From Tetraselmis striata (Eukaryota; Chlorophyta; Chlorodendrophyceae; Chlorodendrales; Chlorodendraceae), in NCBI GenBank assembly GCA_006384855.1, contig VCJN01002690.1:202216-266215 (forward strand): DNA of 64,000 nucleotides, written 5' to 3'. Both the position numbers and the translations under genes were made by a program. The number at the start of each line of letters is the position of its first letter. The first letter of the stretch is position 1. The notes under the pieces are model-generated. The model did not search any database. It was not told the DNA's origin and saw only the letters and a list, made by a program, of their open reading frames with translations. Of this stretch, positions 1 through 64,000 are shown one piece after another.

Positions 1-87
1 CGTGGTCAGAGGCGCTTGAACGGCAGGAGCAAGGTAGGGCAGGGTAGGGCATGCCAGGCACGCAGACGTGGCTGCAGCATCGCTCAC

Positions 88-40410: not shown

Positions 40411-41872
40411 GTATCGAGTCCTCCCCTCCCTAGTGAGCGCGTCCACCTGCGCCTTGCGCTCGGGGCCGTCCTCCTCCGTCACCACATTCTGCAACCCCCA
40501 TCGCGTGACGAACCACGCAGCTCCTTGCATGCGCTTGTACATGTGCCCAAGCACCGCCTGGGGACGCGAAGCTCCTTCTCGGTCATGATCGCCTTCACCC
40601 GGGCCTCCTCGAGCAGCGGACCGGCGTTAAGAATGGAAAACGTTTCCATGTGGTGCAAGCAGTCCTCCATGACCCAGCCGGACTGCACCGTCACCTTGCC
40701 TGACCCTGCAGTCATGGAGGGGAATGCCGTCACGCCCACGCCCACGCCCACGCCCGGGGGGGGGGGGGGGGGGGGTTACCTTTCGATTCTTGGACACTGC
40801 AAACGAAGGGCGCAACCCGCGTTCAAAGTTGCTGGGTATCGGGACTAAAGCCTGGCGCCGGTCTTCCTGCTTCATAGCTCGGAATCCAATGTGGCCCTGC
40901 ACGGTGACAAATTTCCTCCAGAAGTCCCTTCCCAAGCCAAAAAAAACAGGTGGAACGGCGCGAGGGGGAAGAGGTTGATCATGCTGACATAGCCCAGGAC
41001 CACATGCACATGGCACACGCCATGGCAGCCAGTGTTCTGCTTGGCCTCCGCCAGCCGGGTTGTGTTGAACGCACGCCGGGCAAGGTGCGTGATTCACTGG
41101 ACAAGTCATCGCCTTGATGGACGGTTACCAAGCGAGCCTCCCCGTCCGCATCCACAGGGGGGTGCTCCTGGGCAGCCGCCATAGCCTCCACAACCTGCCA
41201 CGCCGACCGGGCGGGTGCGTGTGATTCCATACAACCTCAGTTGAGTGGTGCCACCAGCACGCATGCCGGGCCCACTCACCTCTGAACGCAGAAGGCCCAC
41301 AATGTCCCCGTCCTCGAAAACAGCGCGCCACTGGGTCGCCCCGCCGTAGTCCTCCAACACCCACTCGGTAACGACGCCGGTTATCACGCCGTAGTGCCAT
41401 ACTCCCCGGAACTTCTTGGCGATGACCTTCATGTAGAAGTCGCCGGGATCGCCTTTCCATATCACGCCCTCATCGCGGGTTCGACGCCCGTCGGCGGCCA
41501 CGCAGGCGCGTCGATGTCCATACCGTCTTCGCCAACGGGGTCCTCCCCCACGCCCATCACATCGTCCACCTTCGAGCCGCCGTCGTCCGAGACCGGCGCC
41601 GGCGGGCCGTTTCCGACGGCTGCAACTACTCCTGCTGGCGCCCCTGTTGTTGCTGCTGCTGCTGCTGCCGCCCCTGCTGCTGCTGCTTGTGATAAGGCGG
41701 CCTTGCGGCGCAACTTAGCCGCACGCTTCAACGAGTGGCTACAGTTCGGGAATTTTAGGAAGTGCCGCTCTCGCGCCATCTTATCACATGTGCCCGTCAC
41801 GTTGCCCCGGCAGTGCTTGCATGAGTACACGCCATCCTTCGACACACTCGCTATCCATCCCTTTGCCGGCAT
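40411..41872 (-). pseudogene. Deleted right-arm copy of the BED-finger transposon protein
   Basis: From the 41,872 side it reads VYSCKHCRGNVTGTCDKMAR with ERHFLKFPNC, then a middle region (EVSGPG; WRAVFEDGDIVGLLRSE; FRGVWHYGVITGVVTEWVLE) that the left copy lacks or has lost. FWRKFVTVQGHIGFRAMKQE and GWVMEDCLHHMETFSILNAG follow. It breaks off at GREGRTRY near 40,430. Frames are split at the poly-C intron and by deletions. The middle block shows that the ancestral protein was longer than the left copy suggests. Confidence 0.45.
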
Positions 41873-42474
41873 GCCTGCTGCCGCGCGCGGGGGGCGGGGG
41901 GGGGGGGGGGGGTTGAGAGTTGGGGTGGATGCAACCCACCACCGGCAGGCAACACAGATGCGAGTGCGCGGCTGTCCGCGCTTGATTCAACGGTGAGCGG
42001 CGGTGACCGTGAGGCGACCCCGTACTTCATGCGCGTGCTGGGGCGTTACACAATCATCAGCAGTTAGGGCGGCTGCATTAAAACGCGCACCTACGAACAC
42101 CACCTACCGCCTACCACCTACCGTACCACCTACATCCGCCCACACCTCCGCCCGTCGTGCCGCACATCGCGGCACACCGCGGGGTCAGCGGTCAGCGATG
42201 TGCGGTCAGCGATGTGCGGCGATGTGCAATGAACATCCGCCTGTACTTAGCCCGGGTGCTCCGCGTCGGCGGGCGACACGCGAGCCCGCGTGCGCATATC
42301 AATTTGATGAAATTATGGAAACGAGAAATTCATATAGTACTTTACAGGTCGCGCGCGATAGTCGTCGCTACTGGGTATGAAATCCACGTCCCTCGTCCGT
42401 CCCGTATCGTCCCCGTATGTCGTCGTTCGTCACCAGTAGGGCACATTTACGTCACATATGAATCTCACAGTGAT

Positions 42475-43229
42475 CGCGATCCCATGACCACGATGGCCCA
42501 GGCAGCACAGAATTCCCCCCTACTGGACAGATTCGGCATGACGGCGTGCAACGCATCCTGTAGGCTTTAAGTAGGAGGCTTTAGTGAAGAGGAGGAAAAG
42601 GCGTGTAGCAAAGGTTATTGTTACAGTGTACTGAGGCGTACACGGCTTTATACAGCTATTGGCATGACAGCCGGTTGCAAGCAGGTGCTAGGCTTGGAGA
42701 TGCGATCTGGTCTTGAAGTCATCGGGGGTTGCTGCAAACAGCCTCGGGCATTGGTAGAAGCATGCGAGCGTAACGTGGCCGTACGTCTATAAGACGTGTA
42801 ATAGGTACTGGTGGCGTGCGGGCATTGAGCAGATGTCGGGTAGTACAGAAATGAGTATATACATATACATATATATAGTATATATTTCTGGCTGTGTATA
42901 TGCTGTGTATATGCTATGTATTTGCTTGGAAAATAAAAACAAAAACGAAAACGAAAAGCGAAAAACGAAAATGATTTGAGTTTCGCAAATCGCGACGATT
43001 TGCTATATAGCAGCTTCGGAACGATTATAGCAGCTTGGGAACGATTATAGCAGCTTGGAAATCGTTATAGCATAATCATCGTCGCATGATCATTATCGCA
43101 TAACGCGCAAACGCGTCGGGTTTTGTCGGGTTGTTGCGAGTGCTTTGGCGTGGGCGTGGTGGAAATGACGCTGCACCCGGTGCCCGCGCGCTTTTATATG
43201 GATTTCCGCGTGCTCCGCGCGCCATTCTC
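42475..43229. other. Host DNA between the transposon and the provirus
   Basis: No gene is seen. The stretch contains TATACATATA alternation at about 42,850-42,905, an A-rich purine run (AAACGAAAACGAAAAGCG) at about 42,925-42,975, and the 20-bp triplication listed separately. Confidence 0.45.
43011..43070 (+). repeat. Three 20-bp tandem units next to the virus insertion
   Basis: CAGCTTCGGAACGATTATAG, CAGCTTGGGAACGATTATAG and CAGCTTGGAAATCGTTATAG follow one another directly, 160 bp left of the inferred viral end. Confidence 0.9.
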
Positions 43230-44291
<1,062 letters not shown>

Positions 44292-44299
<8 letters not shown>

Positions 44300-44720
44300 G
44301 TTTTACGATAATGAAGGGAAAATCGTTTGCATCAGATGGGCGAACGTCGCTGCTGCTCGCTTGGTGCTTCTTTCGCTCCGTGTTGCACGAGAAACACTCG
44401 AAGTAGTCCGCGCGGATCTTCGCGCCACACTTGCACGACTTTGTCTTCTCGGCTTCGCGCTTGCGATAACACGGGAAGCACATCGCGTAGTCGCCTTTGA
44501 CCTCGCGCTTGCGACAGACTTGGCACCTCGCGGGCATTTGATCTACCTCGCGAAGAATATCCTCGCGGCACCGACGACAGTAGCTGGACGTATATATAGT
44601 CACGCGAACGCAGCGCGGACACAACCGAGCGCGGCGCGACGATGCGGAGCCCGCGGAGGCGGCGGTGTCGTCGGCGCCGGAATCGCTGAAGGAGACGGTG
44701 ACTGAGACGGACGATGGCAT
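44292..44720 (-). CDS. Viral protein with three Cys4 zinc-ribbon-like modules (142 aa)
   Basis: Three pairs of cysteine knuckles are visible: CPRC...CRRC (residues 34-51), CQVC...CFPC (66-84) and CKC...CFSC (96-112). Each is separated by 10-12 residues, consistent with three stacked zinc-binding modules. The N-terminal 30 residues are Ser/Ala-rich and the C-terminus is polar. Such small ribbons in viruses usually bind nucleic acid or RNA polymerase, or act as transcription regulators; which applies here is unknown. The gene lies beside the replication gene on the opposite strand. The ATG at 44718-44720 is the first in the frame. Confidence 0.75.
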
Positions 44721-44820
44721 TCTGCAGACTCTCGCTCAGCGCCGCGTTTCGCTTGGCTTAAGTGTGTCACGCAAGTGCAGATAAAAACGGACGCTAGATA
44801 AAAGGAACGCCGCGCGCAAG

Positions 44821-45078
44821 ATGGGCCGGCGCCGCGTTTTCAGCGACGAGGAGCGCGCGGAGCGAATTAAGATCTCGAAGAAGAAATGGCGCGACAATAA
44901 CCGGGAGCGTATCCGCGAGTACCGCGCGGAGTATGATAAGGCGAACCGCGAGCGTGTGCGCGAGTATCATAGGCAGTACTACCGCGCCAACGCGGAGCAC
45001 GTCCGCGAGATCCAGCGCGAGCGATACCGCCGCCGCGTTGCCCGGCTTAAGACGGAGGCCGCGGATAGCCCTCTGTAA
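44821..45078 (+). CDS. Small highly charged helical viral protein (85 aa)
   Basis: It begins MGRRRVFSDEERAERIKISK and consists of Arg/Glu/Tyr-rich repeats of the form NRERxREYRxxYxxAN, which would form one long amphipathic helix or coiled coil. Comparable basic helical proteins are frequent in large algal viruses, often of unknown role, possibly nucleic-acid binding. It lies 30 bases upstream of the polymerase-helicase gene in the same direction and is preceded by an A-rich AGATAAAAGG stretch. Confidence 0.65.
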   Translation: MGRRRVFSDEERAERIKISKKKWRDNNRERIREYRAEYDKANRERVREYHRQYYRANAEHVREIQRERYRRRVARLKTEAADSPL

Positions 45079-45107
45079 GAAAGTTCTCTGCTATAGCCAA
45101 CCCAATC

Positions 45108-47609
45108 ATGCCGAGGTCCAATGCTTCGCGGAAATTTTACGCCGAGCCCATGGCCCGGGAAGCTCTAAAGTACATCATTGACCACGAACTGCCCACTATG
45201 CAATTCAACAAGCGCGACAAGGGCATGGACGTCCGTGTGCAACGCATGATCTCTTTTGTGGACGAGAGCGGTGTTCTCAAGGTGTGGTACAAAAAGAAGT
45301 TGAGCGACAAAGCCGGGAACACGTACGGTCGTGATTACACCTCGTTGCCGCTGTCGATTCAAAATCTCCATCGCCCGATCCGCAACGCCATGTTAAACTA
45401 CTACATGGAGACCTCCGGGAAGCGGTGCGTGGATATAGACATCGTCAACTGCCACCCGGTGCTGCTGCTTCAGCTCATCGAGCAACACAAGGTCCAAGCG
45501 AAGTATGACACGATCGTGACCTACGTCAACGACAGAAAGGGGATATTGGAGTCCGCGCAACGGGATTTCAATTGCAATCGCGACAACGCGAAGTCTCTGC
45601 TCCTGTCCCTCATCAACTGCGGCACCTTTCAAGGGTGGGCCTACAAGAACGATGTCGAGATTCCGGAGGGTATCGAGAAAACGCCGATCTACGACTATCT
45701 CGTTCGGTATGGCGAGCAGTTCCATGCATGCATGGACGAGTTGATGGCCGCCATGCCCAAAATGGTTGAAGTCGCGGAGGAGAGCCTTGCCGTCCAAGAC
45801 AAGCCGTGCACCCCTATCAGCCTCAAGAAGCGTTTCATGCACGTCCTTATCACCGAGGCGGAGGACAAAATCTTGCATGCTATGCTCGATTACGTGGTCA
45901 CCAAGCACAAGCAAGCGAGGGTCATCGCAAAGATGTTTGACGGCTGTATTGTCGAGTGCGAGGATGATATCGACTGCGAGCTCGTCCGCCGCTTCGTTGT
46001 GCAGAAGACCGGCTTCGTGCTCAACTTCGAAATCAAGCCCTTCGCGACGCACATTAAAATCCCGACTAACCTCCCGCCGATCGACGACAAGGCAGACGGC
46101 AACAACGCGACGTTGGTCACGCGACTAGACTTCGCGGAGCTATTGTGGTCTCGCAACAAGGATGTGCTCGAAAAGTTGAAGCTGGATGGCATGTCGCAGA
46201 CCTTCTACCGCTTTACCGCCGGCGTTTGGTCCGAGATCAGCCGCAACGAGGTTAACAAGCTCTTCATCGAGGCCGGGCAGAATTGCGACGAGGAGATGGG
46301 CGAGAAGGCCTGCCGGCTTTGGAACAACCTCGACAAGATCGTCAACCTCGTGGTGAATCTGCATTGCGTCGAGGACGGTTTCTCCGACAAGCTGGACACC
46401 TCGCTCGACATCTTCCCCTTCAAGAACTGCTGCTATGATTTTGCGATTAAAGCATTCCGCGACATACGCATGGGCGACTACGTCTCTCAGACCACCGGGT
46501 ACGACTACACGCCGGGCCAAAGCAAGGACGGGGTGAGGGGGTTCCTCGAGCAAGTGTTCCCCGTGGAGGTCGAGCGTCGCGCGTTCATCGCCATTGGTCG
46601 CTACATCGTCACTCCGAGGAAGGACAGGAAGATCATGCCGGTGCTGACGGACGCGACGGACGGGTGGAACGCAAAGACGGAGCTCATGAAACTCCTCAAC
46701 AAAATGGTGGGGAAGCTCGCGATTCAGGGCGAGAGCGCAAAGAAGATGATGATCAAGGACTCCACGAACAACAAGAATGGACACGACGCGTGCATGGAAA
46801 AGCTCAACGGCAAGTTTCTGATTTCCGCCGACGAGATGAGCGGCAGCTTGCAGCTCGCGACGCACACGCTCAAGGAACTCACCTCCTTCCCGATGGTGAC
46901 CGGGCGCCGATTCGGTATGAGCAGCACGTTCGAGTTCCGATGCAAGGCGCTGCCGCTATTCAGCTTCAATAAGGGGCAGATGCCCATGATGGGCCAGGAC
47001 TCGGTGTTCTACGATCGCATGCTCTTCTTCCATCACCGGTCCAAGTTCATCCCGGCGGCCACCGACGAGGAGTTCAAGAAGAAGGCGAAGGGCTACGAAT
47101 ACCCCTTTCGCGTGGATCCTCTCATCGGGCAAAAGCTGCAGGGTTGGCTTTCGGCCACGTTCGACCTCTTCGTGGAGGCGGGCGAAGAGTGCATGAGTAT
47201 CCTTAACGACCCGCCCGAGTCTCTCATCGAGTTCCGCGCGGAGCTCACACAAGACGACAACCCCATGACCGAGTTCTTCGACGCCCACTTTGAGATAACA
47301 CGCAACGAGGACGACTACGTTCAGGTCGGCGAAATCAATGTGTACATTGGGAAGCTCGACGATAAAGCGGTGAGAGGGCTGCCGGGGTCCATCCGCTTCC
47401 GGAAGAACTGCTTTGAGACGTACCTCAAGACACGTGGCATCCGCGTCGTCAGCCGAACATGGGTGGACGGGGAGCATAAGAGGAACGTCGCGAGGGGCGT
47501 GAAGTTCAAGGCCGACGATTGCCCTTTCATCGAAGAGCCCGCAAACGCCGTCCGCGCCCCGCCGAGGGTGTACAAGGGGACCGCCAGCTACTTCATGCGC
47601 GGCTGTTGA
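45108..47609 (+). CDS. TVpol-type DNA polymerase fused to SF3 helicase (833 aa)
   Basis: N-terminal half: VDIDIVNCHP (residues 108-117), AKSLLLSLINCG (161-172) and MFDGCIVE (276-283) fit motifs A, B and C of the transposon-virophage polymerase (TVpol) branch of family-A-like polymerases. C-terminal half: an SF3 helicase with a Walker A-like TDGWNAKTEL (517-526), Walker B KFLISADEM (569-577), a motif C region LPLFSFNKG (615-623) and the DR arginine finger (636-637). This fusion is the usual replication protein of many virophages and PLVs, and it would copy the viral DNA. The P-loop is unusual, with NAKT in place of NGKS/T. The ATG at 45108 is the first in frame. The stop at 47607-47609 runs directly into the internal TIR copy. 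Confidence 0.88.
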   Translation: MPRSNASRKFYAEPMAREALKYIIDHELPTMQFNKRDKGMDVRVQRMISFVDESGVLKVWYKKKLSDKAGNTYGRDYTSLPLSIQNLHRPIRNAMLNYYMETSGKRCVDIDIVNCHPVLLLQLIEQHKVQAKYDTIVTYVNDRKGILESAQRDFNCNRDNAKSLLLSLINCGTFQGWAYKNDVEIPEGIEKTPIYDYLVRYGEQFHACMDELMAAMPKMVEVAEESLAVQDKPCTPISLKKRFMHVLITEAEDKILHAMLDYVVTKHKQARVIAKMFDGCIVECEDDIDCELVRRFVVQKTGFVLNFEIKPFATHIKIPTNLPPIDDKADGNNATLVTRLDFAELLWSRNKDVLEKLKLDGMSQTFYRFTAGVWSEISRNEVNKLFIEAGQNCDEEMGEKACRLWNNLDKIVNLVVNLHCVEDGFSDKLDTSLDIFPFKNCCYDFAIKAFRDIRMGDYVSQTTGYDYTPGQSKDGVRGFLEQVFPVEVERRAFIAIGRYIVTPRKDRKIMPVLTDATDGWNAKTELMKLLNKMVGKLAIQGESAKKMMIKDSTNNKNGHDACMEKLNGKFLISADEMSGSLQLATHTLKELTSFPMVTGRRFGMSSTFEFRCKALPLFSFNKGQMPMMGQDSVFYDRMLFFHHRSKFIPAATDEEFKKKAKGYEYPFRVDPLIGQKLQGWLSATFDLFVEAGEECMSILNDPPESLIEFRAELTQDDNPMTEFFDAHFEITRNEDDYVQVGEINVYIGKLDDKAVRGLPGSIRFRKNCFETYLKTRGIRVVSRTWVDGEHKRNVARGVKFKADDCPFIEEPANAVRAPPRVYKGTASYFMRGC

Positions 47610-47940
47610 AAGTGGCACCTAGTGCCACTTTAGTGCCAGTTAAAGTGGCACTACGGAACATGCTAGAAAGCACGTTGTTGCTATCTCTAAAGTACTGTTT
47701 TCCAGCTGTTAGTGCCACTAGTGCCACTTTTTTTAATATGATAGCGTCACTATACAGTACTATTGTACCTCTCGGTACATACATGCGCGTAGAACAGCGG
47801 CCACCTCGGATCGCAAAGTGGCACTAAGGGGGGTGGAGAGGCCGTGGAACATTCGCGTGGTTTCCCACGTGGTCCCGCGGGGGTGTGGACGTGAAAATGA
47901 TAGTGCCACTTTGCAAACTGGCACTATGGCCGACCGGGAT
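47609..47940 (+). repeat. Internal, diverged direct copy of the left TIR
   Basis: It aligns with 43,230-43,545 in the same orientation. Shared landmarks at the same spacing are AAAGTGGCA, TTTTCCAGCT, AGTGCCACTAGTGCCACTTT, ATAGCGTCACTATACA (ATAGCATCACTATACA in the TIR), the TGTACC....GGTACA palindrome, CACGTGGT and the final AGTGCCA...TGGCA pair. It has diverged by roughly a quarter of positions. It separates the polymerase-helicase from the zinc-finger nuclease gene. Confidence 0.85.
47763..47780. promoter_or_regulatory. Internal copy of the TIR palindrome
   Basis: TTGTACC-TCTC-GGTACAT. The arms are kept except for the outermost pair, and the loop differs by one base. It lies 205 bp upstream of the zinc-finger nuclease start. 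Confidence 0.55.
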
Positions 47941-47984
47941 AAAGGGGACTCGCGGCGGGCACGGGGTACCATACGGCGGCCACC

Positions 47985-48953
47985 ATGGCGGACTCGGAGA
48001 AGGAGCACCGGTGCACGTGGGAGGGTTGTGGGTTTGCGACAAAATGGCCGCAATGTCTGACCGTGCATATGCGAACCCACACGGGCGAGAAGCCTTTCAA
48101 ATGTACATGGGACGGGTGCAACGCCGCGTTTGCGGAGTCCGGAAAATTGTCAAACCACGTGCGAACCCACACGGGCAAGAAGCCTTTCAAATGTACGTGG
48201 GAGGGCTGCGGCGCGGCGTTCACAACATCCGGAAACGTGACAACCCACGTGCGAACCCACACGGGCGAGAAGCCTTTCGAATGTACATGGGACGGGTGCA
48301 ACGCCGCGTTCGCGCAGTCCGGAGTCTTGACAACCCACGCACGCTCTCACACGGGCGAGAAGCCTTTCAAATGCACATGGGAAGGGTGCAACGCCGCGTT
48401 TGCACATCCTTACAGTTTGACATACCACGCGCGGACTCACACCCCGGAATATTGGGCCCGGAAGAAGCAGGAGGAGGAACGCGTGCGCACGGTTCTCGCC
48501 AAGCGGGGCTTTGACTTCAAGAGCGAACACCATATCGATTTCTCGTGTATCGACAACGGCGCCTTCTGTCGCATCGACGTGCTCTTGCAGCTAAACGGCG
48601 GCGTGATCATGCTGGAGATCGACGAGGACCAGCACAAGTTTGGCGACTACACGGTCGGGTGCGATATGCGTCGCATGGCCAAGGTGATGGAGACGCTGGC
48701 CTTGGAGGGCAACACGCTCCCGATCTATTGGCTTCGCTACAACCCCGGCGCGTATAGCGAGGACGGCGCGAAGCGCAAGCGACTCAAGGTTATGCGAGAA
48801 CAGATGCTTTTAAAGCACATCGAGAGCGTGAAGTTCGACCGCCCCTTTTGGGTGCACCACATGTTCTACGACGTGACGGGCGGGTGCTTGAACGCGACAC
48901 TAGACCCGGAGTACCACGATTGGATCGCGGAGTGCACTTCGTACACCTTGTAA
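47985..48953 (+). CDS. Five C2H2 zinc fingers fused to a PD-(D/E)XK / Vsr-like nuclease domain (322 aa)
   Basis: Five TFIIIA-type fingers (C-x4-C-x12-H-x3-H) repeat with an exact 30-residue period at residues 10-32, 40-62, 70-92, 100-122 and 130-152, joined by TGEKPF linkers. Frameworks of fingers 2-5 are nearly identical, but the contact positions (-1, 2, 3, 6) differ: E,G,K,N; T,G,N,T; Q,G,V,T; H,Y,S,Y. Finger 1 has W,Q,C,V. The C-terminal domain has RIDVLLQ (Asp198) and MLEIDEDQHKFG (Glu211, Asp213, His217), then YWLRYNPGAY. This is the layout of Vsr/DUF559/EDxHD-type nucleases. The likely role is sequence-specific DNA cutting, for element mobility, competitor exclusion or regulation. The gene follows the internal TIR copy, whose AGTGCCAC repeats form part of its upstream region. 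The finger call is certain; nuclease activity is inferred. Confidence 0.88.
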   Translation: MADSEKEHRCTWEGCGFATKWPQCLTVHMRTHTGEKPFKCTWDGCNAAFAESGKLSNHVRTHTGKKPFKCTWEGCGAAFTTSGNVTTHVRTHTGEKPFECTWDGCNAAFAQSGVLTTHARSHTGEKPFKCTWEGCNAAFAHPYSLTYHARTHTPEYWARKKQEEERVRTVLAKRGFDFKSEHHIDFSCIDNGAFCRIDVLLQLNGGVIMLEIDEDQHKFGDYTVGCDMRRMAKVMETLALEGNTLPIYWLRYNPGAYSEDGAKRKRLKVMREQMLLKHIESVKFDRPFWVHHMFYDVTGGCLNATLDPEYHDWIAECTSYTL

Positions 48954-48954
48954 C

Positions 48955-49143
48955 TCATTTCGTATGAATTGCACGGGCCAATGCGGGGGCTCTGTTCTCG
49001 ATTTTCATCGAGGTTGGGAGCGATAGAAAGCTCGATGGGCGAATTATTGCCGCGCCGCCCTTTGGCACGGTCGCCCGGGCCGTTGCTAGAGCCATTCCGC
49101 CGCCACGCTTCTTCGCATTCTTCTTCGCACTAGGTTTCGCCAT
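48955..49143 (-). CDS. Small Lys-rich viral protein (62 aa)
   Basis: It begins MAKPSAKKNAKKRGGGMALA and ends APALARAIHTK. It starts divergently 22 bases from the next plus-strand gene, and its ATG has the same AT-rich leader (CATATTAAA) as other viral genes. Its stop lies directly after that of the nuclease gene, tail to tail. It is basic and perhaps DNA-binding. The small size makes it less certain. Confidence 0.5.
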   Translation of the reverse strand: MAKPSAKKNAKKRGGGMALATARATVPKGGAAIIRPSSFLSLPTSMKIENRAPALARAIHTK

Positions 49144-49165
49144 TTTAATATGAAAGGAACATAAA

Positions 49166-50029
49166 ATGACGAGCTTTCAGTGTCACCTCGACAGCAAATT
49201 CGCGGACATGCACTTCTCCACAAACGCTTGCGTGTTCTACCTCGCGGACCCGCTAACCCTCCCTTCGCAAGATTACGAGTGGCTTGTAGCGGTGCCGCAC
49301 GCGACAATCCCGCTTTCGCATTGGGTTATCGATGAATCGAACAACCTGCTCGAGCTAGTATACTCCGACGAGTCACGATACATATCGCTACCTTTAGGCA
49401 ATCGAAGCGTGGACGAGATCGTCGTGTACCTCAACGACAGGCTTTTGCACGGATACACCGCCGCCTACGACGAAGCGATAAACCGTATCGTATTCAGCTC
49501 CGAGGTGCTTGGCGAAAGCCTCGCGATCGGAGAAATGAGTACGTGTGGAAGGTTGTTGGGCGTGGAAGCGGGAGACGCGGCGGTGGACGGCGTGCTCATC
49601 CCGCCGCGCGGCGTCGATCTCGCGGGTACCTCGTCGATATTCATCCGAAGCAACCTTTCGACTCGTAATCGCGATCCGGTGTCGAAGGCGACAAGCGATA
49701 TTCTCGCCAAAGTGCACGTTTCGCAGAACTTTAACGAGATCGAGTATCACTCGTCTTCGCTCAAGTTCCCGATAGCTGATCGAAACGTGTCGCTCATCAT
49801 CATCTATCTCACCGACGACTTCCAACGACACATGGACTTCCACGCCGCGGACTTCTCGCTGACCATTGAGTTTACGCTTCGTCGAAAAGAAACCATCTCG
49901 CACGCCGTAGATTATCGATTAACTGGTGTTATGAATAACGATGTTAGCCCGGCGAAGAGAGACGCTGAGGCCGCGAAGCCTTCCGATGCGTCGGGGGATC
50001 CAAGTGGACCTAAGCGAAGTGAACGATAG
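49166..50029 (+). CDS. Putative virion structural protein upstream of the fibre (287 aa)
   Basis: The leader AACATAAAATG is shared with the discoidin-type gene at 62,367. The protein looks beta-rich: ADMHFSTNACVFYLADPLTL, then WLVAVPHATIPLSHWVIDES, LPLGNRSVDEIVVYLNDRLL and FSLTIEFTLRRKE. The GNRS-x-x-E-I-V-x-x-L-N pattern recalls minor capsid or fibre-base proteins in algal viruses, which often read GNYS-x-x-E-L. The C-terminus is a charged tail (AKRDAEAAKPSDAS). It directly precedes and overlaps the fibre gene, so it may anchor the fibre. The function is inferred. Confidence 0.65.
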   Translation: MTSFQCHLDSKFADMHFSTNACVFYLADPLTLPSQDYEWLVAVPHATIPLSHWVIDESNNLLELVYSDESRYISLPLGNRSVDEIVVYLNDRLLHGYTAAYDEAINRIVFSSEVLGESLAIGEMSTCGRLLGVEAGDAAVDGVLIPPRGVDLAGTSSIFIRSNLSTRNRDPVSKATSDILAKVHVSQNFNEIEYHSSSLKFPIADRNVSLIIIYLTDDFQRHMDFHAADFSLTIEFTLRRKETISHAVDYRLTGVMNNDVSPAKRDAEAAKPSDASGDPSGPKRSER

Positions 50030-53000
50030 TATCGCGGAGCTCGAAGCGAAACACGACATCGATACCGAGAACTTGGAGGCCGGTCTCGGGGAAACACAAT
50101 CAAATGTGGAAGGCCTCTCCAACGCCGCCGCCGCCGCCGCGGATGCGCTATCGTCGCTCGAGGACGATATCGTCGCTCTATCGAACTTCGCTCACGAGTG
50201 CTGCGAAACCGCCGAATCGAACATCGCGGCCCTTAGCGAAGAGCTAGCGGCTATCGATACCTCGTCGTATATCCCTCAAAGCGAGAAGTCGCGATTTATC
50301 GTGGACCTCGTCGAGCCTTTCGCGATAGGAGCGCACGCGGACAACGCCGGCCGGATTGACATTTTCGGGACACTTCGCAGCCCCCTTGGCCCTCTATTCG
50401 ATCTCGGCGAGCCTTCGAACCCTTGGCGCGAAGTGTACGCCGAGGGGCTGACTCTTTCGGACACATCAAATCTGAAATTTACACACTTTCAAGGCGCGGA
50501 AGGCGATTTCAACCTCGACGACGTTATCGAATACGCGGTATCCCTCGTCACGACTCCCGATCACCCAACCACGGTTTCGCTTGAGCGCATCAACGAAGTC
50601 AGTTTTAACAACGGAATTGTCGTCAAGGGCGATCTGATACCGTACGAAGAAAACGCCGGGTTCCCCCCATTATCGCGCGTGGGAAATCTGACTTATCCGT
50701 TCTTGGAGGGGCACTTCACGAACCTCTTCGCGGGCAACATTTACGGCCTCGACGAAGGCGGCTCGACACGTCGTGTCCTCCTCGAAGGGGACGCCGCGGC
50801 GACCCCTCAGTGGATAACGGACCTTCAAAGTGATGTAAACATTTCGGGCTTTAATCTCGACGTCGACTTCACGGGCCCACGAGGCCCGGCGGGCGCCGAT
50901 GGCGCCGATGGCGCAGACGCCGTGTTGCCTTCGTGGGTCGCCTCTTCGCAAAGCGCGATACCTCTTAGCGGCTTCGCAAACGATCTCGTGCTCACCGCGG
51001 ACAGTGTGGCATGGGAAAACGTCCTCAACAAGCCAACATTTTTCAGCGGGAGCTACAATGACCTTACAAACACGCCGACGATCCCTTCGCTAGCCGGCTA
51101 TGCTACCGAATCGTGGGTGTCGTCGCAGGGGTTCATCACCGATGCGGCGAGTTTGCCTTCGTGGGTCGCCACCTCGCAAAGCGCGATACCTCTTAGCGGC
51201 TTTGCAAACGATCTCGTGCTCACCGCGGACAATGTTGAGTGGGCGGATGTGTTGAACAAGCCAACATTTTTCAGCGGGAGCTACAACGACCTTACAAACA
51301 CGCCGACGATCCCTTCGCTAGCCGGCTATGCTACCGAATCGTGGGTGTCGTCGCAGGGGTTCATCACCGATGCGGCGAGTTTGCCTTCGTGGGTCGCCAC
51401 CTCGCAAAGCGCGATACCTCTTAGCGGCTTTGCAAACGATCTCGTGCTCACCGCGGACAATGTTGAGTGGGCGGATGTGTTGAACAAGCCAACATTTTTC
51501 AGCGGGAGCTACAACGACCTTACAAACACGCCGACGATCCCTTCGCTAGCCGGCTATGCTACCGAATCGTGGGTGTCGTCGCAAGGGTTCATCACCGAGG
51601 CGGCAAATTTGCCTTCGTGGGTGGCCACTTCGCAAAGCGCGATACCTCTTAGCGGCTTCGCAAACGATCTCGTGCTCACCGCGGACAGTGTGGCATGGGA
51701 AAACGTCCTCAACAAGCCAACATTTTTCAGCGGGAGCTACAATGACCTTACAAACACGCCGACGATCCCTTCGCTAGCCGGCTATGCTACCGAATCGTGG
51801 GTGTCGTCGCAGGGGTTCATCACCGATGCGGCGAGTTTGCCTTCGTGGGTCGCCACCTCGCAAAGCGCGATACCTCTTAGCGGCTTTGCAAACGATCTCG
51901 TGCTCACCGCGGACAATGTTGAGTGGGCGGATGTGTTGAACAAGCCAACATTTTTCAGCGGGAGCTACAACGACCTTACAAACACGCCGACGATCCCTTC
52001 GCTAGCCGGCTATGCTACCGAATCGTGGGTGTCGTCGCAAGGGTTCATCACCGAGGCGGCAAGTTTGCCTTCGTGGGTGGCCACTTCGCAAAGCGCGATA
52101 CCTCTTAGCGGCTTCGCAAACGATCTCGTGCTTACCGCGGATAATGTTGAGTGGGCGGATGTGTTGAACAAGCCAACATTTTTCAGCGGGAGCTACAACG
52201 ACCTTACAAACACGCCAACGATCCCTTCGCTAGTCGGCTATGCGACGGAGGCATGGGTTACTTCGCAAGATTTTGGAGCCGATGCCGATTGGGCCTCGTT
52301 GTCCGGCCGCCCGCTTTGGACCGACAAGTTCATATACACGCAAAATGTCGGTCCCCAGATGTACCCAACAGCCTCCGAGAATTACGACATCGTCCTTCTC
52401 GACAGCATAACGCCTACCACCAACGACGTGTATAACTTGGGCCAAGATGGATTGCGATGGAAATTCGTGTACGCCATGAGCGGTCGGTTTGCGACGGATA
52501 TCCATGTTGGCGAAATCACCAACCATGCGAGATTCACGTACAACACGGCCTCGAACCTCGTGTCGGTGAGCCGCCCCTTGCTCCTTCCTCGGTCGCCCGA
52601 GGTGAGTAACGAGGCCGCGACCAAGGGCTATGTCGATGCGGTAGTCGCGGGCGGGGGCAACCACGACCACCCCGAGTACGAGCCGGCTAAATTTATGAAG
52701 GTAGTCGAAGAATTCGGGGAGTTTTACATAATCCCCAACTACGAATACGCTCGTACGCTAGACGAAGACGCGATATTAACACTTGGAACCTACTATGACT
52801 ATGCGACCGAATCCAACAACGACGATTTGCGATGGACCGAAATTTGGGCCGAAGATATCCACGCCTACTATGTCCGCGCCGAAAACCGACTTGTCCTAGG
52901 CGAGCTAGTAACCAACGCAAGCATGTCATATGTAAAGTCGATAGAATCCATCGAGTTCTCGAAAAGCATCGTACCCAAAACCCACGACTCCCTTGATTTG

Positions 53001-54122
53001 GGGAAATCGGATCTCGCGTGGAAACATGTGTACGCCACCGACATTGAGGTTGAGGACGACATCAAGATCGGCAACGATATCCGATTCGTCGATTCGAGCG
53101 GCAACAACGTTTGTCGCCTCAAGTACCACCCCGACGGGTGCGAGGTCGACGGGCACATGTTCCCCGACGGCACGAGGGAATTCGATCTCGGAAAGGCTGG
53201 CGACGAGTGGCGCGACATATACGCGCAGTTTGCGACGATTAGCGGCGGCGCGTCAATAGGCTCTTTGGAGACGCCGCTGCTCAACGTCACGGGCGTGATG
53301 TCGTTGAACGGGAATAAAATCACGCAGGTCGGGGCTCCGGACACTGGCACCGATGTCGTCAACAAGTCGTATATCGATACCGCGATTGCTAATGTCACGA
53401 TCGATTGGGACAATATCGGCGGCGAGACAAAGCCTGCGATATTCAAAGACGAGGTGGATTACAACGTTTCGTCGGAAACTTTCATTCCAGCTCTGAACTA
53501 CGTGTACGATCTCGGAACCACGAGCTCGAGATGGGGGACCCTCCACGCGTACGGCGTCAACGCGTACCTTGCCCCGATCAACGCCTTTGAGGGCGTGGAC
53601 GCGAAAGGCAAAGCGATAGTGGACGTCGCCGCCCCTACCGACAGCGCCGACGCGGCTAACAAGGCGTACGTGGACGCCGAGGTGCTTAATGTGCAGATAC
53701 GAGCATCGCTAGCGCTCGGGATGCTCGGCTTTGCGCACATACGGGTTGACAAGTTGTCGGAAACCGAAACCAACGTGAGTTTCCGCCTGTCGCAAATATG
53801 CGTGACATGCAACTCGGCGGACGAGTACTCCTCGCCAACCCTACGCGCCACGGTACTGAAGAACGCGAGTTTTCCTCACACGCTAGGGAGGACCATAACG
53901 GCGACGCCGGCGTCGAGCTCAGTCGGGGCGTTCGAGTCCACCTACACGTTTGCAAATATCGACCTAGACTACACCTTTGCGGACGGGTACAACGCGATGG
54001 CTCCGGTCATCAAATTTTGGATTACACGAAACGCGACAAGGGCGGGAATCGGAATGAGCGCGACGATCGCCGAGCACGCATACTACCACAGCACACTAAC
54101 GCCGCAAGACGTGTACTTCTAG
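49986..54122 (+). CDS. Giant repeat fibre / receptor-binding protein (1,378 aa from the ATG at 49986)
   Basis: An upstream ATG at 49941 would add 15 residues inside the previous gene; 49986 overlaps it by only 44 bases and looks the better start. The N-terminus is a coiled coil (VNDSIAELEAKHDIDTENLE...). A short collagen-like GPRGPAGADGADGAD stretch follows, and then six 76-residue units (SWVATSQSAIPLSGFANDLV ... NKPTFFSGSYNDLTNTPT). The C-terminal 600 residues carry phage-tail-fibre motifs, repeatedly DLG-x-x-x-x-x-W-x-x-x-Y (NLGQDGLRWKFVYA, DLGKAGDEWRDIYA, DLGTTSSRWGTLHA), and three A-A-x-K-x-Y-V-D signatures (NEAATKGYVDA, ADAANKAYVDA and a variant VNKSYID). It is expected to trimerise on the virion and contact the host surface. 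The repeat DNA is nearly identical between units. Confidence 0.85.
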   Translation: MRRGIQVDLSEVNDSIAELEAKHDIDTENLEAGLGETQSNVEGLSNAAAAAADALSSLEDDIVALSNFAHECCETAESNIAALSEELAAIDTSSYIPQSEKSRFIVDLVEPFAIGAHADNAGRIDIFGTLRSPLGPLFDLGEPSNPWREVYAEGLTLSDTSNLKFTHFQGAEGDFNLDDVIEYAVSLVTTPDHPTTVSLERINEVSFNNGIVVKGDLIPYEENAGFPPLSRVGNLTYPFLEGHFTNLFAGNIYGLDEGGSTRRVLLEGDAAATPQWITDLQSDVNISGFNLDVDFTGPRGPAGADGADGADAVLPSWVASSQSAIPLSGFANDLVLTADSVAWENVLNKPTFFSGSYNDLTNTPTIPSLAGYATESWVSSQGFITDAASLPSWVATSQSAIPLSGFANDLVLTADNVEWADVLNKPTFFSGSYNDLTNTPTIPSLAGYATESWVSSQGFITDAASLPSWVATSQSAIPLSGFANDLVLTADNVEWADVLNKPTFFSGSYNDLTNTPTIPSLAGYATESWVSSQGFITEAANLPSWVATSQSAIPLSGFANDLVLTADSVAWENVLNKPTFFSGSYNDLTNTPTIPSLAGYATESWVSSQGFITDAASLPSWVATSQSAIPLSGFANDLVLTADNVEWADVLNKPTFFSGSYNDLTNTPTIPSLAGYATESWVSSQGFITEAASLPSWVATSQSAIPLSGFANDLVLTADNVEWADVLNKPTFFSGSYNDLTNTPTIPSLVGYATEAWVTSQDFGADADWASLSGRPLWTDKFIYTQNVGPQMYPTASENYDIVLLDSITPTTNDVYNLGQDGLRWKFVYAMSGRFATDIHVGEITNHARFTYNTASNLVSVSRPLLLPRSPEVSNEAATKGYVDAVVAGGGNHDHPEYEPAKFMKVVEEFGEFYIIPNYEYARTLDEDAILTLGTYYDYATESNNDDLRWTEIWAEDIHAYYVRAENRLVLGELVTNASMSYVKSIESIEFSKSIVPKTHDSLDLGKSDLAWKHVYATDIEVEDDIKIGNDIRFVDSSGNNVCRLKYHPDGCEVDGHMFPDGTREFDLGKAGDEWRDIYAQFATISGGASIGSLETPLLNVTGVMSLNGNKITQVGAPDTGTDVVNKSYIDTAIANVTIDWDNIGGETKPAIFKDEVDYNVSSETFIPALNYVYDLGTTSSRWGTLHAYGVNAYLAPINAFEGVDAKGKAIVDVAAPTDSADAANKAYVDAEVLNVQIRASLALGMLGFAHIRVDKLSETETNVSFRLSQICVTCNSADEYSSPTLRATVLKNASFPHTLGRTITATPASSSVGAFESTYTFANIDLDYTFADGYNAMAPVIKFWITRNATRAGIGMSATIAEHAYYHSTLTPQDVYF
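50925..52292 (+). repeat. Six 228-bp in-frame repeats forming a 684-bp block duplication
   Basis: TTGCCTTCGTGGGT starts at 50,925, 51,153, 51,381, 51,609, 51,837 and 52,065, exactly 228 bp apart. Units 1 and 4 share the variant SVAWENVL, and units 2, 3, 5 and 6 share NVEWADVL. The order A-B-B-A-B-B shows that one three-unit block was duplicated. The end of unit 6 diverges. Confidence 0.97.
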
Positions 54123-55427
54123 ACATCGGTATCCTCCGTGGGGATCACGGTGTCTCGCCAATAGCTGAGCGTCGTTGCCAACGAGTGTCGATGGCAATCC
54201 GCGACTCTTTGCACCTTGGCCAACGAGTAGTTATTCGGGTCTTCGGTCTTGAGCATGTCCGAGATCCTCGAGTGACGTATGTCGTTGACGGCGACGCCGA
54301 GCCCCTTCTTCAGGATCGCGCCCGTGTTGTCGACGCTCTTCCCCATGAGCAGATAAGCTCGCGGGCGAGCGACCAACGAGGCCTCGACTTGTCGCTTGAG
54401 GGACTCGTTAAGAGGGAATGTGTACGGCTTGTCGGGAAACTGTTGCATGGTCTTGAACTTTCGCACGACGAGCTTGCCTTCGGGGCGCAGATAGTAGTTG
54501 GGGTAGGTTCTCGCTTGCGACTCGCGATTGATGACCTTGACGGTGCCCAGCTCGGCGCGAAGCCCCCATAGGTTGGTTTGCAGGAGCGCCGCGATGTACT
54601 CCGCCGACGCGGCCCCGAACTTCTCCTTGACAGCCGGAACCCGCGACTTGATGACGCTGATGTCCAGCACCGTCCCGGTGACCGTGCGCTGCGTGGTTTC
54701 CTCGCCGACCTTCTTGGCGTGCACGAGCATGCGAGCGTGGTACTTTGCGAGGGCCTCCTCGCCGATCGCGGCCTTGTACTCCGGGATGTACTTGCTCGGC
54801 GAGTAGATGCGGTTGAAATAGTCTCGCTTGGTGCTCGAGTTGGTGTACCGGCTCTCGATGGCGCGCACGACCTTGTCGCCCTCCCGCAAGCACTTGACGA
54901 GGTCGTTTGGGGAGCATTTCATGACCACTTTGACGACGCGCCTCATCGTGGTGATGTAGTTGTTGATCGTCGTCTGGCTGAGCGTCTTCGCGGTTGTGAC
55001 CCCGTGGGCATTGATTTGCCGACGCCCGGTAAGTGCCTCTATCTTTGCAATAATCTCCTCGAGGGTCATGTCGCGCCCGCGATTCGGCTCGGGCTCCTCC
55101 GCAGGGGGCTCGGGCTCCTCCGCGGGGGGGGAGGGCTCGGGCTCCTCCGCGGGGGGGGGGGGGATCCGCCCGATTGCGCGTGCACGGCGGGGCGGCGTCG
55201 TGGGGGCTCGGCACGGGCGCAAGACCGTTATCGGTGCGAATGCGATTGAAATCATCGGGAGTCATGTTGTACTTCTCGAGCGTGTATAGCTGCATGCGCG
55301 ACACGGCGCCGGTGGCGATTCGCTTGCAATAGCGCTTCTTGTTGTGACGATCGGCATTGCGATGGTACGACTCGAGGTTGGCGGCGCGGCGCTTGCGGAG
55401 CTCCGCGGAGGCGCGGGTGCGAGGCAT
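54119..55427 (-). CDS. Tyrosine recombinase (viral integrase), frame-broken at a 13-base homopolymer
   Basis: The N-terminus starts at the ATG at 55427 (MPRTRASAELRKRRAANLES; basic, with YNMTPDDFNRIRTDNG). It runs into a run of 13 C (plus-strand G at 55,151-55,163). Beyond it the homologous frame is a different one, with AEEPEP repeats and then the catalytic domain to the stop at 54,119. Catalytic residues are visible: Arg in WGLRAELGTVKV, Lys in VRKFKTMQ, His-x-x-Arg in NDIRHSRISDML, His in DCHRHSLATTL and Tyr in TLSYWRD. Tyrosine recombinases integrate many PLVs. The break could be true inactivation, length polymorphism, programmed slippage or a sequencing error. It overlaps the fibre gene stop by 4 bases, tail to tail. 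Confidence 0.85.
55151..55163. repeat. G13 homopolymer inside the recombinase gene
   Basis: The only long G/C homopolymer inside the provirus coding regions. A run whose length is a multiple of three would keep one reading frame across it; 13 does not. Confidence 0.85.
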
Positions 55428-55518
55428 GGTGTCCGGCGATTTAGTAAATACTCTAGCAAATAATCTATCGCCTTAAGCGAGGCGCGCGAAGCGTGAAACT
55501 TTTTCGCGCGGGATATAA
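55428..55518. promoter_or_regulatory. Divergent 91-bp promoter region between the recombinase and the methyltransferase
   Basis: AT-rich segments lie on both sides: TTTAGTAAATACTCTAGCAA towards the recombinase and GGGATATAAATG at the methyltransferase start. It must serve both divergent genes, as there is no other space. Confidence 0.5.
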
Positions 55519-56250
55519 ATGCGCCCTCTTCGCGTTCTCGACCTGTGCTGCGGGACGCAGAGCGTGGGCGCGGCTCTGCGCGGGATGTTTGGCGACCGGG
55601 CGGTCGAGTACGTGTCGCTGGATGCCGACCCCTCTTCGCGCGCCGCGATAACGCTCGACGTGCGCGAATGGGACTACGCCGCGGCCTACCCGCGCGGGCA
55701 CTTCGACGTGATATGGGCCAGCCCGCCGTGCACGGAGTACTCGATGGCAAAGACGCGCGGGGTGCGCAAGCTCGAGCTCGCGGATTCCATCGCGAAGAAG
55801 TGTCTCGAGATCATCGAGTGGTACCGGCCGCGGTACTGGTTCATCGAGAACCCCTTCACCGGCATGCTCAAGCGGCGCGATTTCATGCAGCCCCTCGCGC
55901 CCTTTCTGCGCCGCTGCACCTACTGCAAGTACGGCCGCGACTTCAAGAAGCCCACCGCGGTGTGGACCAACAAGCCGGGCCTCGACCTCAAGTTCTGCGA
56001 GCGCGACCCTTGCGCTTACAAGCGGGAGCACGGCGTCCACTACGCGTGCGCGCAGAGCGGTCCCCGCGGCACGCTGTATCGCAGGAGCGCGGGCAGCGCC
56101 GAGACGTATCAAATCCCGAAGGAGTTGCTCGCCGAGTTATTCGCCGGCATCGGTGTTGGGGCGGATGAGGAGGTTGCCGCTCCAGTGGCTGATAGTCGCC
56201 CCTTCTTCGAGGTCCGGGAAGGCGACGTTGATGCGGCTGAACGCCCCTAG
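55519..56250 (+). CDS. DNA (cytosine-5) methyltransferase (243 aa)
   Basis: Motif I is VLDLCCGTQSVG (residues 6-17). The catalytic motif IV is WASPPCTEYSMAK with the Pro-Cys nucleophile. Motif VI is FIENPFTGML (ENP rather than the common ENV). A motif VIII-like KPTAVWTNKPG follows, with a short target-recognition part after it. The protein is compact compared with the 300-400 residues of typical bacterial Dcm enzymes. It probably modifies viral DNA or marks it against host or viral nucleases. The ATG at 55519 sits in ATATAAATG. The last 35 codons overlap an antisense ORF, so the functional end may be near KELLAELFAGIG. Confidence 0.88.
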   Translation: MRPLRVLDLCCGTQSVGAALRGMFGDRAVEYVSLDADPSSRAAITLDVREWDYAAAYPRGHFDVIWASPPCTEYSMAKTRGVRKLELADSIAKKCLEIIEWYRPRYWFIENPFTGMLKRRDFMQPLAPFLRRCTYCKYGRDFKKPTAVWTNKPGLDLKFCERDPCAYKREHGVHYACAQSGPRGTLYRRSAGSAETYQIPKELLAELFAGIGVGADEEVAAPVADSRPFFEVREGDVDAAERP

Positions 56251-56409
56251 GCTGGGAACGGGGTAGCCGATATGGTCCTCGAGTATGCGGCTGCCGAGAC
56301 AATCGTACGAGCCCGCGACAAAGCCGTTGTACAGGTTCTCGTTGAGGTGCGAGAAGGGGAACTCGGAAAACTCCGGGATCAGGACGGTGGTGTCCACGCG
56401 AGCCGGCAT
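56137..56409 (-). CDS. Small viral protein, unknown (90 aa), antisense overlap with the methyltransferase end
   Basis: It begins MPARVDTTVLIPEFSEFPFS and continues HLNENLYNGFVAGSYDCLGS. The composition is that of a folded protein, not of a shadow frame. It overlaps the methyltransferase tail by 114 bases on the other strand and has the orientation of the following structural genes. Unrecognised. Confidence 0.5.
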   Translation of the reverse strand: MPARVDTTVLIPEFSEFPFSHLNENLYNGFVAGSYDCLGSRILEDHIGYPVPSLGAFSRINVAFPDLEEGATISHWSGNLLIRPNTDAGE

Positions 56410-56492
56410 CGATCCGCGCCGTGTTACTAAGAGCGCCCAAAAAGAAGCGCGGGGGATCGGGCGAAGCCCTCCCCGCCGAAGGCGGCGGAAGG

Positions 56493-57413
56493 CTATGCAT
56501 CGGAGATGGTCAGCGAGATGCTTACCTGCGACTCCGCGTCCGTGCCGGCCACGAGACTAAACGAGTCGACGGTCGGGGCGGTGGTATCGGCATTGGTGGT
56601 TTTGGTATGGGGGCCTTCGATGACCGACTCGTTCCCGACTTGATCTTTGGCCATGACCCATGTGTAGTAGGTTGTGTTGGGGGTCAACCCCGTGTAGGTG
56701 TGCGAAGTCGTGCCGCCGGCAAACGCATCGCCGATGGTTTTGAGGAGCGCCGGCCCGGGGTTGGTGTCCTGCGTGTCATTTAGTAACACGTAGATGGTCT
56801 GAACGGCGTCGTTGTCCGTCACGTCGAGTAACACTTGGAGAGACGTGGTCGGAGGCGTGCCGAGAAGTACAGCGACCTCCCTGATAACCGGGGGTGTGTT
56901 GTCCTCCGTGGTGTACACGCCGAGCGGGGTGATGGACGAGTTTGCGTTGTCATCAATCAACTCCACCCAAAAGTAGCGAGCGGCGTTTGGCGCCCCGATA
57001 TCGTACTCCCACGTGAGATTGGAGCCGCTGATGCCGCTGGTGATGTTCGCGGTGGAGGTGCCCGGGATGGTGTTGGTGGAGTTTACGTACAGCAGCGCCG
57101 AGGATATCGTCATTTCGGGTTTGATTAACACGGAGATTAAAGCTTGTAGCTCCGCGTTGGTGCCCGCCCCCACGCCCGCGAAGTCGATCCACGAGTTTTC
57201 TAGCAGCCTCCGCCCCAACGACGAAGCCCCCGCGTCGCGATGGATAGCGCTAACGTTTTCGAGGAACACCTCGATCGGGCCGCCGCGGCGGATTGGGCTA
57301 CGCCCTCCCCCCATGTGGGGGAAGTGGGTGCTCAGCAAGGCGCCGTCAAAGGCCGCTTGCACGGCGCTCTTGTCCGAGGAGCCGATAGAGCTGACGAATG
57401 CGCGATGGGACAT
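56493..57413 (-). CDS. Virion surface protein with fibronectin-III/Ig-like modules (306 aa)
   Basis: The leader ACCAAGTAAATG abuts the preceding gene's stop. The N-terminal 90 residues (MSHRAFVSSIGSSDKSAVQA ...) are unrecognised. They are followed by repeated beta-sandwich modules, for example ITPLGVYTTEDNTPPVIREV and GLTPNTTYYTWVMAKDQVGN with ESVIEGPHTKTT, the usual end of an FnIII domain. The same module occurs at the start of the protein encoded at 62,367-63,643. It probably decorates the capsid or fibre. The C-terminus stops soon after TAPTVDSFSLVAGTDAES, inside what looks like a further module. Confidence 0.75.
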   Translation of the reverse strand: MSHRAFVSSIGSSDKSAVQAAFDGALLSTHFPHMGGGRSPIRRGGPIEVFLENVSAIHRDAGASSLGRRLLENSWIDFAGVGAGTNAELQALISVLIKPEMTISSALLYVNSTNTIPGTSTANITSGISGSNLTWEYDIGAPNAARYFWVELIDDNANSSITPLGVYTTEDNTPPVIREVAVLLGTPPTTSLQVLLDVTDNDAVQTIYVLLNDTQDTNPGPALLKTIGDAFAGGTTSHTYTGLTPNTTYYTWVMAKDQVGNESVIEGPHTKTTNADTTAPTVDSFSLVAGTDAESQVSISLTISDA

Positions 57414-58412: not shown

Positions 58413-58456
58413 CCGCCTGCGAGTTTACTAGAAGTGGGCAAAAGATTTCGCCCGGA

Positions 58457-59677: not shown

Positions 59678-59709
59678 TTTAAATAATGCTGAGAACTTTA
59701 TTTTAGCGA

Positions 59710-59805
59710 GGCGGGGCTAGCGCCTAGGGGCCTCGCCGCCCCTACGGGCGAGGTGGTTTAAGGCGTAGGATCGGAGATAAGCCCGCGCGGGGGGCTAGCC
59801 CCGCC
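59710..59805. terminator. GC-rich inverted repeat pair between the pVI-like and capsid genes
   Basis: GGCGGGGCTAGC (59,710-59,721) is repeated inverted at 59,794-59,805. It encloses a second hairpin, CCTCGCC...GGCGAGG (about 59,731-59,753). The outer arm contains the stop codon of the pVI-like gene. It may end or attenuate the upstream transcript. The function is inferred from structure only. Confidence 0.35.
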
Positions 59806-60136: not shown

Positions 60137-60182
60137 CTGTATTTACGATCATTGCAGAAAATTAGCGTTGCGGTAAAAAACA

Positions 60183-63644: not shown

Positions 63645-64000
63645 GTGCGTTTGAGAGTCTCGCGCGGTGCGTTTGAGAGTCTCGCGCGGTGCGTTTGAGA
63701 GTCTCGGTGCGTTTGAGAGTCTCGGTGTGTTCTGCCTAAGTACTGCACCGAGTCACGCGCTCTTCGGCTCAAGGACCGAGCGAGCCCGGCGGCGCGGCGA
63801 GCGAGCGAGCGAAAGAGCGAGCACCCAATATTGCCACTTTCAAACTGGCACTAGACCCCCCCACGTCATGGGGCGGCGAGACCACGTGGGAAACCGCGTG
63901 GATGATGCCGCCACCGAAAACCCCCCGTAGTGCCACTGTGCGTGACAAGGCCGCCCCCCGTTATCGCTCGCTTGTACCGTGAGGTACAAAAGTTATTGTA
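63645..64000 (-). repeat. Right terminal inverted repeat, cut by the window end
   Basis: Inverted copy of 43,375-43,712. It starts two bases after the discoidin gene stop with three to four units of GTGCGTTTGAGAGTCTCG, one more than the left TIR. The match runs to the last base, so the true element end lies outside. Confidence 0.95.
63972..63989. promoter_or_regulatory. Palindrome in the right TIR
   Basis: TTGTACC-GTGA-GGTACAA, the mirror image of the left-TIR palindrome. Confidence 0.6.

Follow-up and report, generated by a model that had tools for sequence, protein, structure and literature searches.

A probable natural zinc-finger nuclease with changing DNA-contact residues on a polinton-like element of Tetraselmis striata

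The stretch of DNA analysed here (the window; 64,000 nucleotides) corresponds to C2171:202216-266215 in the 224-Mb genome of Tetraselmis striata. A polinton-like element spans from ~42870 to beyond position 64000, where the contig ends. Its left terminal inverted repeat (TIR; 42870..43714) has an outer boundary taken from alignment with sister copies, and the inner part of this repeat (43375-43714) pairs at 98% with 63660-64000 in a repeat search, the latter being the right TIR (63660..64000), cut by the contig end. The element encodes an 833-aa D5-type primase-helicase on the + strand (45108..47609; PF08706 D5_N, E 1.2e-7) and an A32-type ATPase at 61120-61887 (Pox_A32, E 7.7e-17). The presence of TIRs, a primase-helicase and a packaging ATPase on ~20 kb fits a polinton-like virus (PLV). 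Among the 15 ORFs scanned in the element, Pfam identified neither a major capsid protein nor an integrase family. Two further ORFs of the element were annotated in passing. The first (49941-54122) is fibre-like, with 1393 aa and a 76-residue repeat with six starts; DUF1353 passes its cut-off in this ORF only when summed over the repeats and by no single stretch. The second (55519-56250) weakly matches C-5 cytosine methylases (PF00145, 23.0 bits; cut-off 22).

The gene of interest shares a replication cassette with the primase-helicase. It is a 322-aa ORF on the + strand with an ATG start (47985..48953), delimited from the ORF list, Pfam and its homologues, and consists of C2H2 fingers followed by a C-terminal domain of ~165 residues. 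Between the two genes lies a TIR-like stretch (47609..47878, + strand) that aligns at 73.6% over 276 columns with TIR positions 43230-43498 and is likely a promoter or replication signal. Residues ~10-152 of the ORF match C2H2 fingers in Pfam (zf-H2C2_2, E 5.8e-28; zf-C2H2, 3.7e-18). Taking C-x2/4-C-x12-H-x3-H units above the Pfam cut-off as the definition of the class, PF00096 scores 65.3 bits (cut-off 25.2) and PF13465 scores 96 (cut-off 40). The fingers are joined by TGEKP-type linkers and lie, all on the + strand, at 48012..48080, 48102..48170, 48192..48260, 48282..48350 and 48372..48440, with helices (positions -1..6) reading WPQCLTV, ESGKLSN, TSGNVTT, QSGVLTT and HPYSLTY, respectively. 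A preliminary description of this DNA had claimed five tandem fingers, and the exact 90-bp spacing and Pfam scores far above cut-off bear this out. Fingers 1 and 5 have unusual residues (W, Y) at contact positions, and their DNA binding may be weak.

The C-terminal domain (residues 158-322; 48456..48950, + strand) was compared with its homologues in an alignment of 124 rows (A2), comprising the window sequence and 123 of 125 homologues (P0123 and P0125 omitted). Identity to the window domain ranges from 24 to 94% and is mostly 35-45%. Asp198 (48576..48578) is D in all 123 rows with a letter at this column. The motif Glu211-x-Asp213-Glu214-x-Gln216-His217 (48615..48635) follows, in which E211, D213, E214 and H217 are invariant (124/124), as is Arg230 (48672..48674; all three features on the + strand); E181 is kept in 123/124 rows. 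The preliminary description had pointed to Asp198 and Glu211 at these same positions and had named, as one result that would speak against its reading, homologues in which the acidic residues are lost; no such loss is seen at D198, E211 or D213. The conserved D198 and E211-x-D213 constitute a PD-(D/E)XK-like motif, with Asp rather than Lys as its third residue, as is also the case for DUF559 (ELD in YcjD). In another reading, the nuclease fold is dead and the protein acts as a transcription factor or repressor. Most C2H2 arrays have regulatory roles, and the contact residues of vertebrate KRAB zinc-finger proteins diversify too, so such a role would have precedent; against it stands an acidic motif that is invariant in 124/124 rows despite the low identity of most of them, and we regard a purely regulatory protein as unlikely.

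In an hhalign comparison, the domain matched a 44-sequence DUF559 profile (PF04480; E. coli YcjD) with a probability of 82.5 (P 9.9e-6, score 39.2, 82 columns), the match being centred around E-x-D-x-x-Q-H and placing LEIDEDQH of the domain opposite ELDGGQH. Control comparisons scored lower: column shuffles reached at most 19.8 (n=150), block shuffles at most 33.9 (n=100) and the reversed profile 14.8, and the DUF559 score was attained by 0/150 column and 0/100 block shuffles. Compared with YcjD alone, the domain gave 79.7%. The EsV-1-7-type branch of the domain described below reached only 20% against DUF559, which somewhat weakens the assignment. DUF559 is a member of the PD-(D/E)XK superfamily, and it is through profile comparison only that a domain of PD-(D/E)XK type is supported.

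Searches against curated collections returned little. The window domain has no Pfam match above cut-off and no match in NCBIfam, and neither a single query nor a profile found a relative above cut-off among PDB sequences; a PDB search using an alignment with the fingers still included gave zinc fingers only as its best 60 matches. The curated Pfam cut-off for PF04480 was passed by no member tested, and the same holds for NERD (PF08378), for which 6/21 domain members tested gave sub-cut-off matches. A PF04480 search across the whole genome yielded 0 matches. What distinguishes the window domain from DUF559 and NERD is a C-terminus of greater length and two signatures, E-x-D-E-x-Q-H and R-Y-N-P. 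The domain had been called Vsr/EDxHD-like PD-(D/E)XK. The PD-(D/E)XK part of this label agrees with the DUF559 comparison; Vsr membership found no support, E. coli Vsr (a single sequence used without a profile) giving a probability of 2.1. DUF559, rather than Vsr, is the nearest named relative found. The accessible text of PMC6083498 presents EDxHD as a homing endonuclease family, and the Vsr comparison and the PDB profile search without a match set the window domain apart from the Vsr/EDxHD homing endonucleases.

The same domain occurs in 125 distinct homologues, drawn from two overlapping listings of 14 and 119. One or more fingers detected by regular expression precede the motif in 112 of these proteins and are lacking in 13, and a finger C-terminal of the motif was detected in 0/125; P0047 is the one homologue that misses the motif expression. 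That 125 distinct proteins share the domain, 112 of them with N-terminal fingers, indicates that the fusion is not a product of chance. Two homologues bear Tetstr1 gene names; the 119 of the larger listing sit on contigs of up to 485 kb and are named unrevealingly. Scans of viral contigs gave one locus, L017, an IMG/VR contig with the same fusion, the neighbours of which reach no Pfam cut-off.

Within the T. striata genome, the domain has at least 16 matches. They comprise nine close copies of full length together with C696 (94-100% identity); a second piece of C696; two copies at 73-74% (C427 and C2417; L011/L012); two pieces of a decayed C2208 copy; and one 35% relative (C2385; L016). The ATPase of the element has at least 29 full-length genome matches at 90% or more. 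A frame open from ATG through the fingers to the stop is retained in eight close copies (C2171, C2052, C1946, C1728, C2679, C2696, C229 and C1890); the C454 and C696 copies are frameshifted and that of C2208 is decayed. Pieces of ~9.8 kb around the C427 and C2417 copies contain no match to the TIR, the D5 gene or the 287-aa gene. In these two copies the fingers are split over two frames, and one of them matches a Tetstr1 gene model (P0002). A host repeat found at window 41000-42473 recurs at 97% identity in L050:60-1546 (C2417), so that the same repeat adjoins both the window element and the C2417 nuclease copy, which is divergent and stands alone; the query was started at 41000 and the repeat is possibly longer.

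Comparison of nine close copies with the window shows where the gene varies. Identities are 96.0-99.9% for D5, 95.8-98.5% for the nuclease DNA and 87.7-98.7% for the stretch before the gene. The finger DNA is 95.1-99.3% identical in three of the copies (C2052, C454 and C1728) and 74.5-83.6% identical in the other six, the latter values covering the best BLAST piece only. Sister copies carry six array types of 4, 5, 6 or 12 fingers. C2171, C2052 and C454 have an identical type of five-finger array, and C1728 has five fingers with two alike. The four-finger arrays are of two types (C1946 = C2696 and C2679 = C696). The C1890 array has six fingers and that of C229 has twelve, one being degenerate in each case; in C229, Tandem Repeats Finder (TRF) counts a 90-bp unit 11.3 times. 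The arrays of different copies differ in length by 90-bp units.

Substitutions were counted along a minimum spanning tree of 38 distinct finger sequences. These derive from 9 copies with 47 fingers in all, counting only fingers with a C-x-W start, so that C1890 contributes four. Contact codons have undergone 80.3 nonsynonymous (N) to 11.7 synonymous (S) changes and framework codons 76.0 to 81.0 (Fisher p 4.6e-10), bearing in mind that tree edges join paralogous fingers, that arrays have probably exchanged units and that the Fisher test assumes independent changes. The nuclease domain has an N:S ratio of 28.5:43.5 (8 copies), from which the contacts likewise differ (p 1e-10). Across the 23 codons of the unit, nonsynonymous changes are most frequent at helix positions 3 (29), 6 (21.5), -1 (16) and 2 (13.8), the next value being 13.0. 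The imbalance is retained when only short edges are used, with contacts at 48.5:5.5 and framework at 45.3:56.7 for edges of at most 12 nt (p 2e-8), and 26:1 and 24:26 for edges of at most 8 nt (p 1e-5). Edges of at most 5 nt give 7:0 and 10.5:7.5, which is not significant (p 0.057). Synonymous change per site is 0.121 at contacts and 0.194 in the framework; as it is not raised at contacts, there is no sign of a mutation hotspot there, and selection is likelier than local mutation.

By plain pair counts, first fingers, which can be compared position by position, have a pN/pS of 1.49 at contacts and 0.13 in the framework. The values are 1.12 and 0.30 for inner fingers and 1.07 and 0.41 for last fingers, so that the contact values for these two classes are only slightly above 1. 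Contacts also vary more than the framework in 73 of 74 homologues with at least four canonical fingers; this is expected for C2H2 arrays generally and proves less. The nuclease domain itself is under purifying selection, with a dN/dS of 0.18-0.21 against the 73-74% identical copies C427 and C2417 (dN 0.18-0.19, dS 0.85-1.02) and of 0.06-0.47 among nine close copies, where few changes are available. Taken together, these counts support the hypothesis that the contact residues change under diversifying selection. The suggestion that selection acts to change the target, made from the window array before any copies were compared, is supported by N/S counts that are highest at helix 3, 6, -1 and 2.

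The gene is not a fixed component of these elements. The D5 primase-helicase and the gene that follows it (window 45108-48953; L020-L039) swap between elements as a cassette, the right edge of which lies at 48942..48953 (+ strand): eight of 20 gene-less elements rejoin the window at 48942-48949, within the last codons of the nuclease gene. In three of the 20 (C2765, C1860 and C2646) the D5 is the same one (98.4-98.7%) and 47972-48906 is missing. Their junction is a CGG(G/A)GTACCA microhomology, the left copy of which is at 47962..47971 (+ strand) and the right copy near 48907-48916, and the end of the gene is retained; the gene has been lost here by microhomology deletion, probably in a single event. 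Slot contents of the remaining gene-less elements were assigned by eye from ORF starts. They comprise another D5 with a 239-aa gene in 4/20 (the single one tested has a SET domain, E 6.7e-8), a 112-117-aa gene in 5/20, a 155/202-aa pair or part thereof in 4/20 and a 198-aa gene or its like in 2/20, with one ambiguous case and one with retroelement-like ORFs making up the last two. Four other gene types occupy the nuclease slot, and the nuclease is thus the accessory gene of one exchanged replication cassette. It is evidently dispensable, as three elements have lost it and the C454, C696 and C2208 copies are frameshifted or decayed.

These exchanges are the basis of the main rival to a target-tracking nuclease, namely a homing-type driver that would cut elements with another replication cassette (a different D5 allele or helicase together with a SET-domain or other small gene), whereupon repair would copy in D5 together with the nuclease gene. 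The position of the gene in a swappable cassette, the shared rejoining point and the four other gene types in the slot speak for homing. Cassettes can, however, be swapped without a nuclease. The target of a homing enzyme is usually a conserved site at the insertion point, unlike what would be expected from arrays that diverge as these do, and we consider homing of the cassette rather improbable.

Sequences of the element that the array might recognise were also inspected. Behind a TA run, the terminal sequence GGCTGTGTATATGC is exact in 17 of 19 element ends and has one mismatch in the other two; the 19 ends cover four array types and gene-less elements (C1860, C1638 and C951). The 20 bases just outside the element are at least 75% AT in 10/19 ends, and no array-specific flank was seen among the 19. 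An integration-site chooser, in which the nuclease would open host DNA for insertion, could account for an element in whose 15 scanned ORFs Pfam found no integrase family. The same terminal sequence accompanies the four array types and the gene-less elements alike, and no influence of the array on the insertion site is therefore visible; integration-site choice was rejected as the main function, and we hold it to be very improbable.

Telomere resolution, replication-origin activity and packaging are functions in which the nuclease would process or bind the element's own DNA. The gene adjoins the primase-helicase and has the TIR-like stretch just upstream. Moreover, AGTGCCACT, counted in either orientation, occurs six times in 47609-47984 and four times in the left TIR (42870-43714), with 0 occurrences in 1-42800, 43715-47608 and 49000-63600. 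The TIR-like stretch and the six upstream sites would also fit binding of own DNA, and it is the TIR-like stretch that keeps self-processing alive. It is disfavoured by the divergence of the arrays: the TIRs of gene-bearing elements are 96-100% like those of the window, yet wholly different arrays are found on them, which makes a conserved own target unlikely, and gene-less elements with TIRs exist (C1860 and C1638). We therefore give a role on own DNA little credence. By our own estimate, recognition-code prediction would be of little use here, as each array would yield only ~7 informative bases, a motif that turns up by chance in any 20-kb element.

Combined, the array and a DUF559-like domain with an intact acidic motif support the natural zinc-finger nuclease architecture proposed in the preliminary description. 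We put a probability of about 60% on a natural zinc-finger nuclease that is carried by a virus, has a target undergoing change and is probably aimed at competing elements. The fingers would bind a site of ~12-36 bp, given 4 to 12 fingers at 3 bp each, and cleavage by the C-terminal domain would fall beside it. With less certainty, the target would lie not in the conserved parts of the element itself but in a changing opponent. Most likely this opponent would be polinton-like elements that compete within one cell, among them those whose replication cassette at this locus is a rival one, or a co-infecting giant virus; its escape would be tracked by the array. A point against this target-tracking reading is that contacts vary in C2H2 arrays generally. 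If it is correct, virus-against-virus targeting in eukaryotic cells becomes directly testable, since six arrays on nearly identical nucleases occur in one algal genome.

Engineered zinc-finger nucleases, a genome-editing tool, join a C2H2 array to FokI, the domain of which is of PD-(D/E)XK type. The window protein resembles them in having a tandem C2H2 head fused to a PD-(D/E)XK-type domain, and differs in being natural, in a cutter that is DUF559-like rather than FokI and in array length and contacts that differ between natural copies. A natural family with intact catalytic residues and heads under strong diversifying selection would be a source of new catalytic domains, coupled to arrays of 4-12 fingers that evolved in nature. 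In PRDM9, finger units differ in number between alleles and contact positions are under diversifying selection, both features shared with the window family; PRDM9 marks chromatin and a separate enzyme cuts, whereas the putative nuclease of the window family is in the same protein as the fingers. Searches of the literature on PLVs and related viruses, as far as its text was accessible, found no description of such a finger-nuclease fusion; the paper by Chase and colleagues (2022) on Tetraselmis PLVs could describe the gene. The terms 'zinc finger' and 'zinc' are absent from the accessible main text of the PLV-related papers searched by term. PLVs carry GIY-YIG and HNH homing endonucleases (PMC12220804), which are also PLV-borne nucleases but belong to other families, and finger arrays go unmentioned in the accessible part of that source. 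The available text of PMC12085832 reports a giant virus with one MYM-type zinc finger protein, unlike the window gene.

The 35% relative, L016 (C2385:273576-276908), has EsV-1-7 motifs followed by a nuclease domain that belongs to this family (frame 118-2097), with PF19114 matching in 7 stretches (E 9e-96). Of its 81 listed relatives (P0128-P0208), 75 have PF19114 and one has PF02498. The latter, P0205, has its nuclease domain beside PF02498 (Bro-N). Finger-type and EsV-type nuclease domains match each other at 99.8% in hhalign (P 1.4e-28). The EsV-1-7 proteins therefore have the same domain as the window protein under a head of EsV-1-7 repeats (PF19114) rather than C2H2 fingers, and this sharing offers a lead to the function of the repeats, which the accessible text of PMC12477816 treats as possibly an uncharacterised zinc finger class, encountered for the most part in giant viruses.

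When near-identical EsV-1-7 repeats were paired (34 pairs, 10 proteins), differences were most frequent at positions 10 (20 pairs) and 8 (19), the next value being 14. Residues Q/R/I prevail at position 8 and S/T/N/V at position 10, both in the K-x-P-x motif; this variation is reminiscent of a reading code. Tentatively, algal viruses and satellites may possess one nuclease chassis, used in virus-virus conflict, with interchangeable, evolvable heads, C2H2 or EsV-1-7, in which a small set of hypervariable residues (helix -1, 2, 3 and 6; positions 8 and 10) would read DNA while the framework stays constant. We think this broader proposal could well be wrong; if true, it would define a protein-coded, retargetable nuclease class and make EsV-1-7 a second natural DNA-reading code. 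In L016 alone, position 17 changes most (12), followed by positions 10 (11) and 8 (9).
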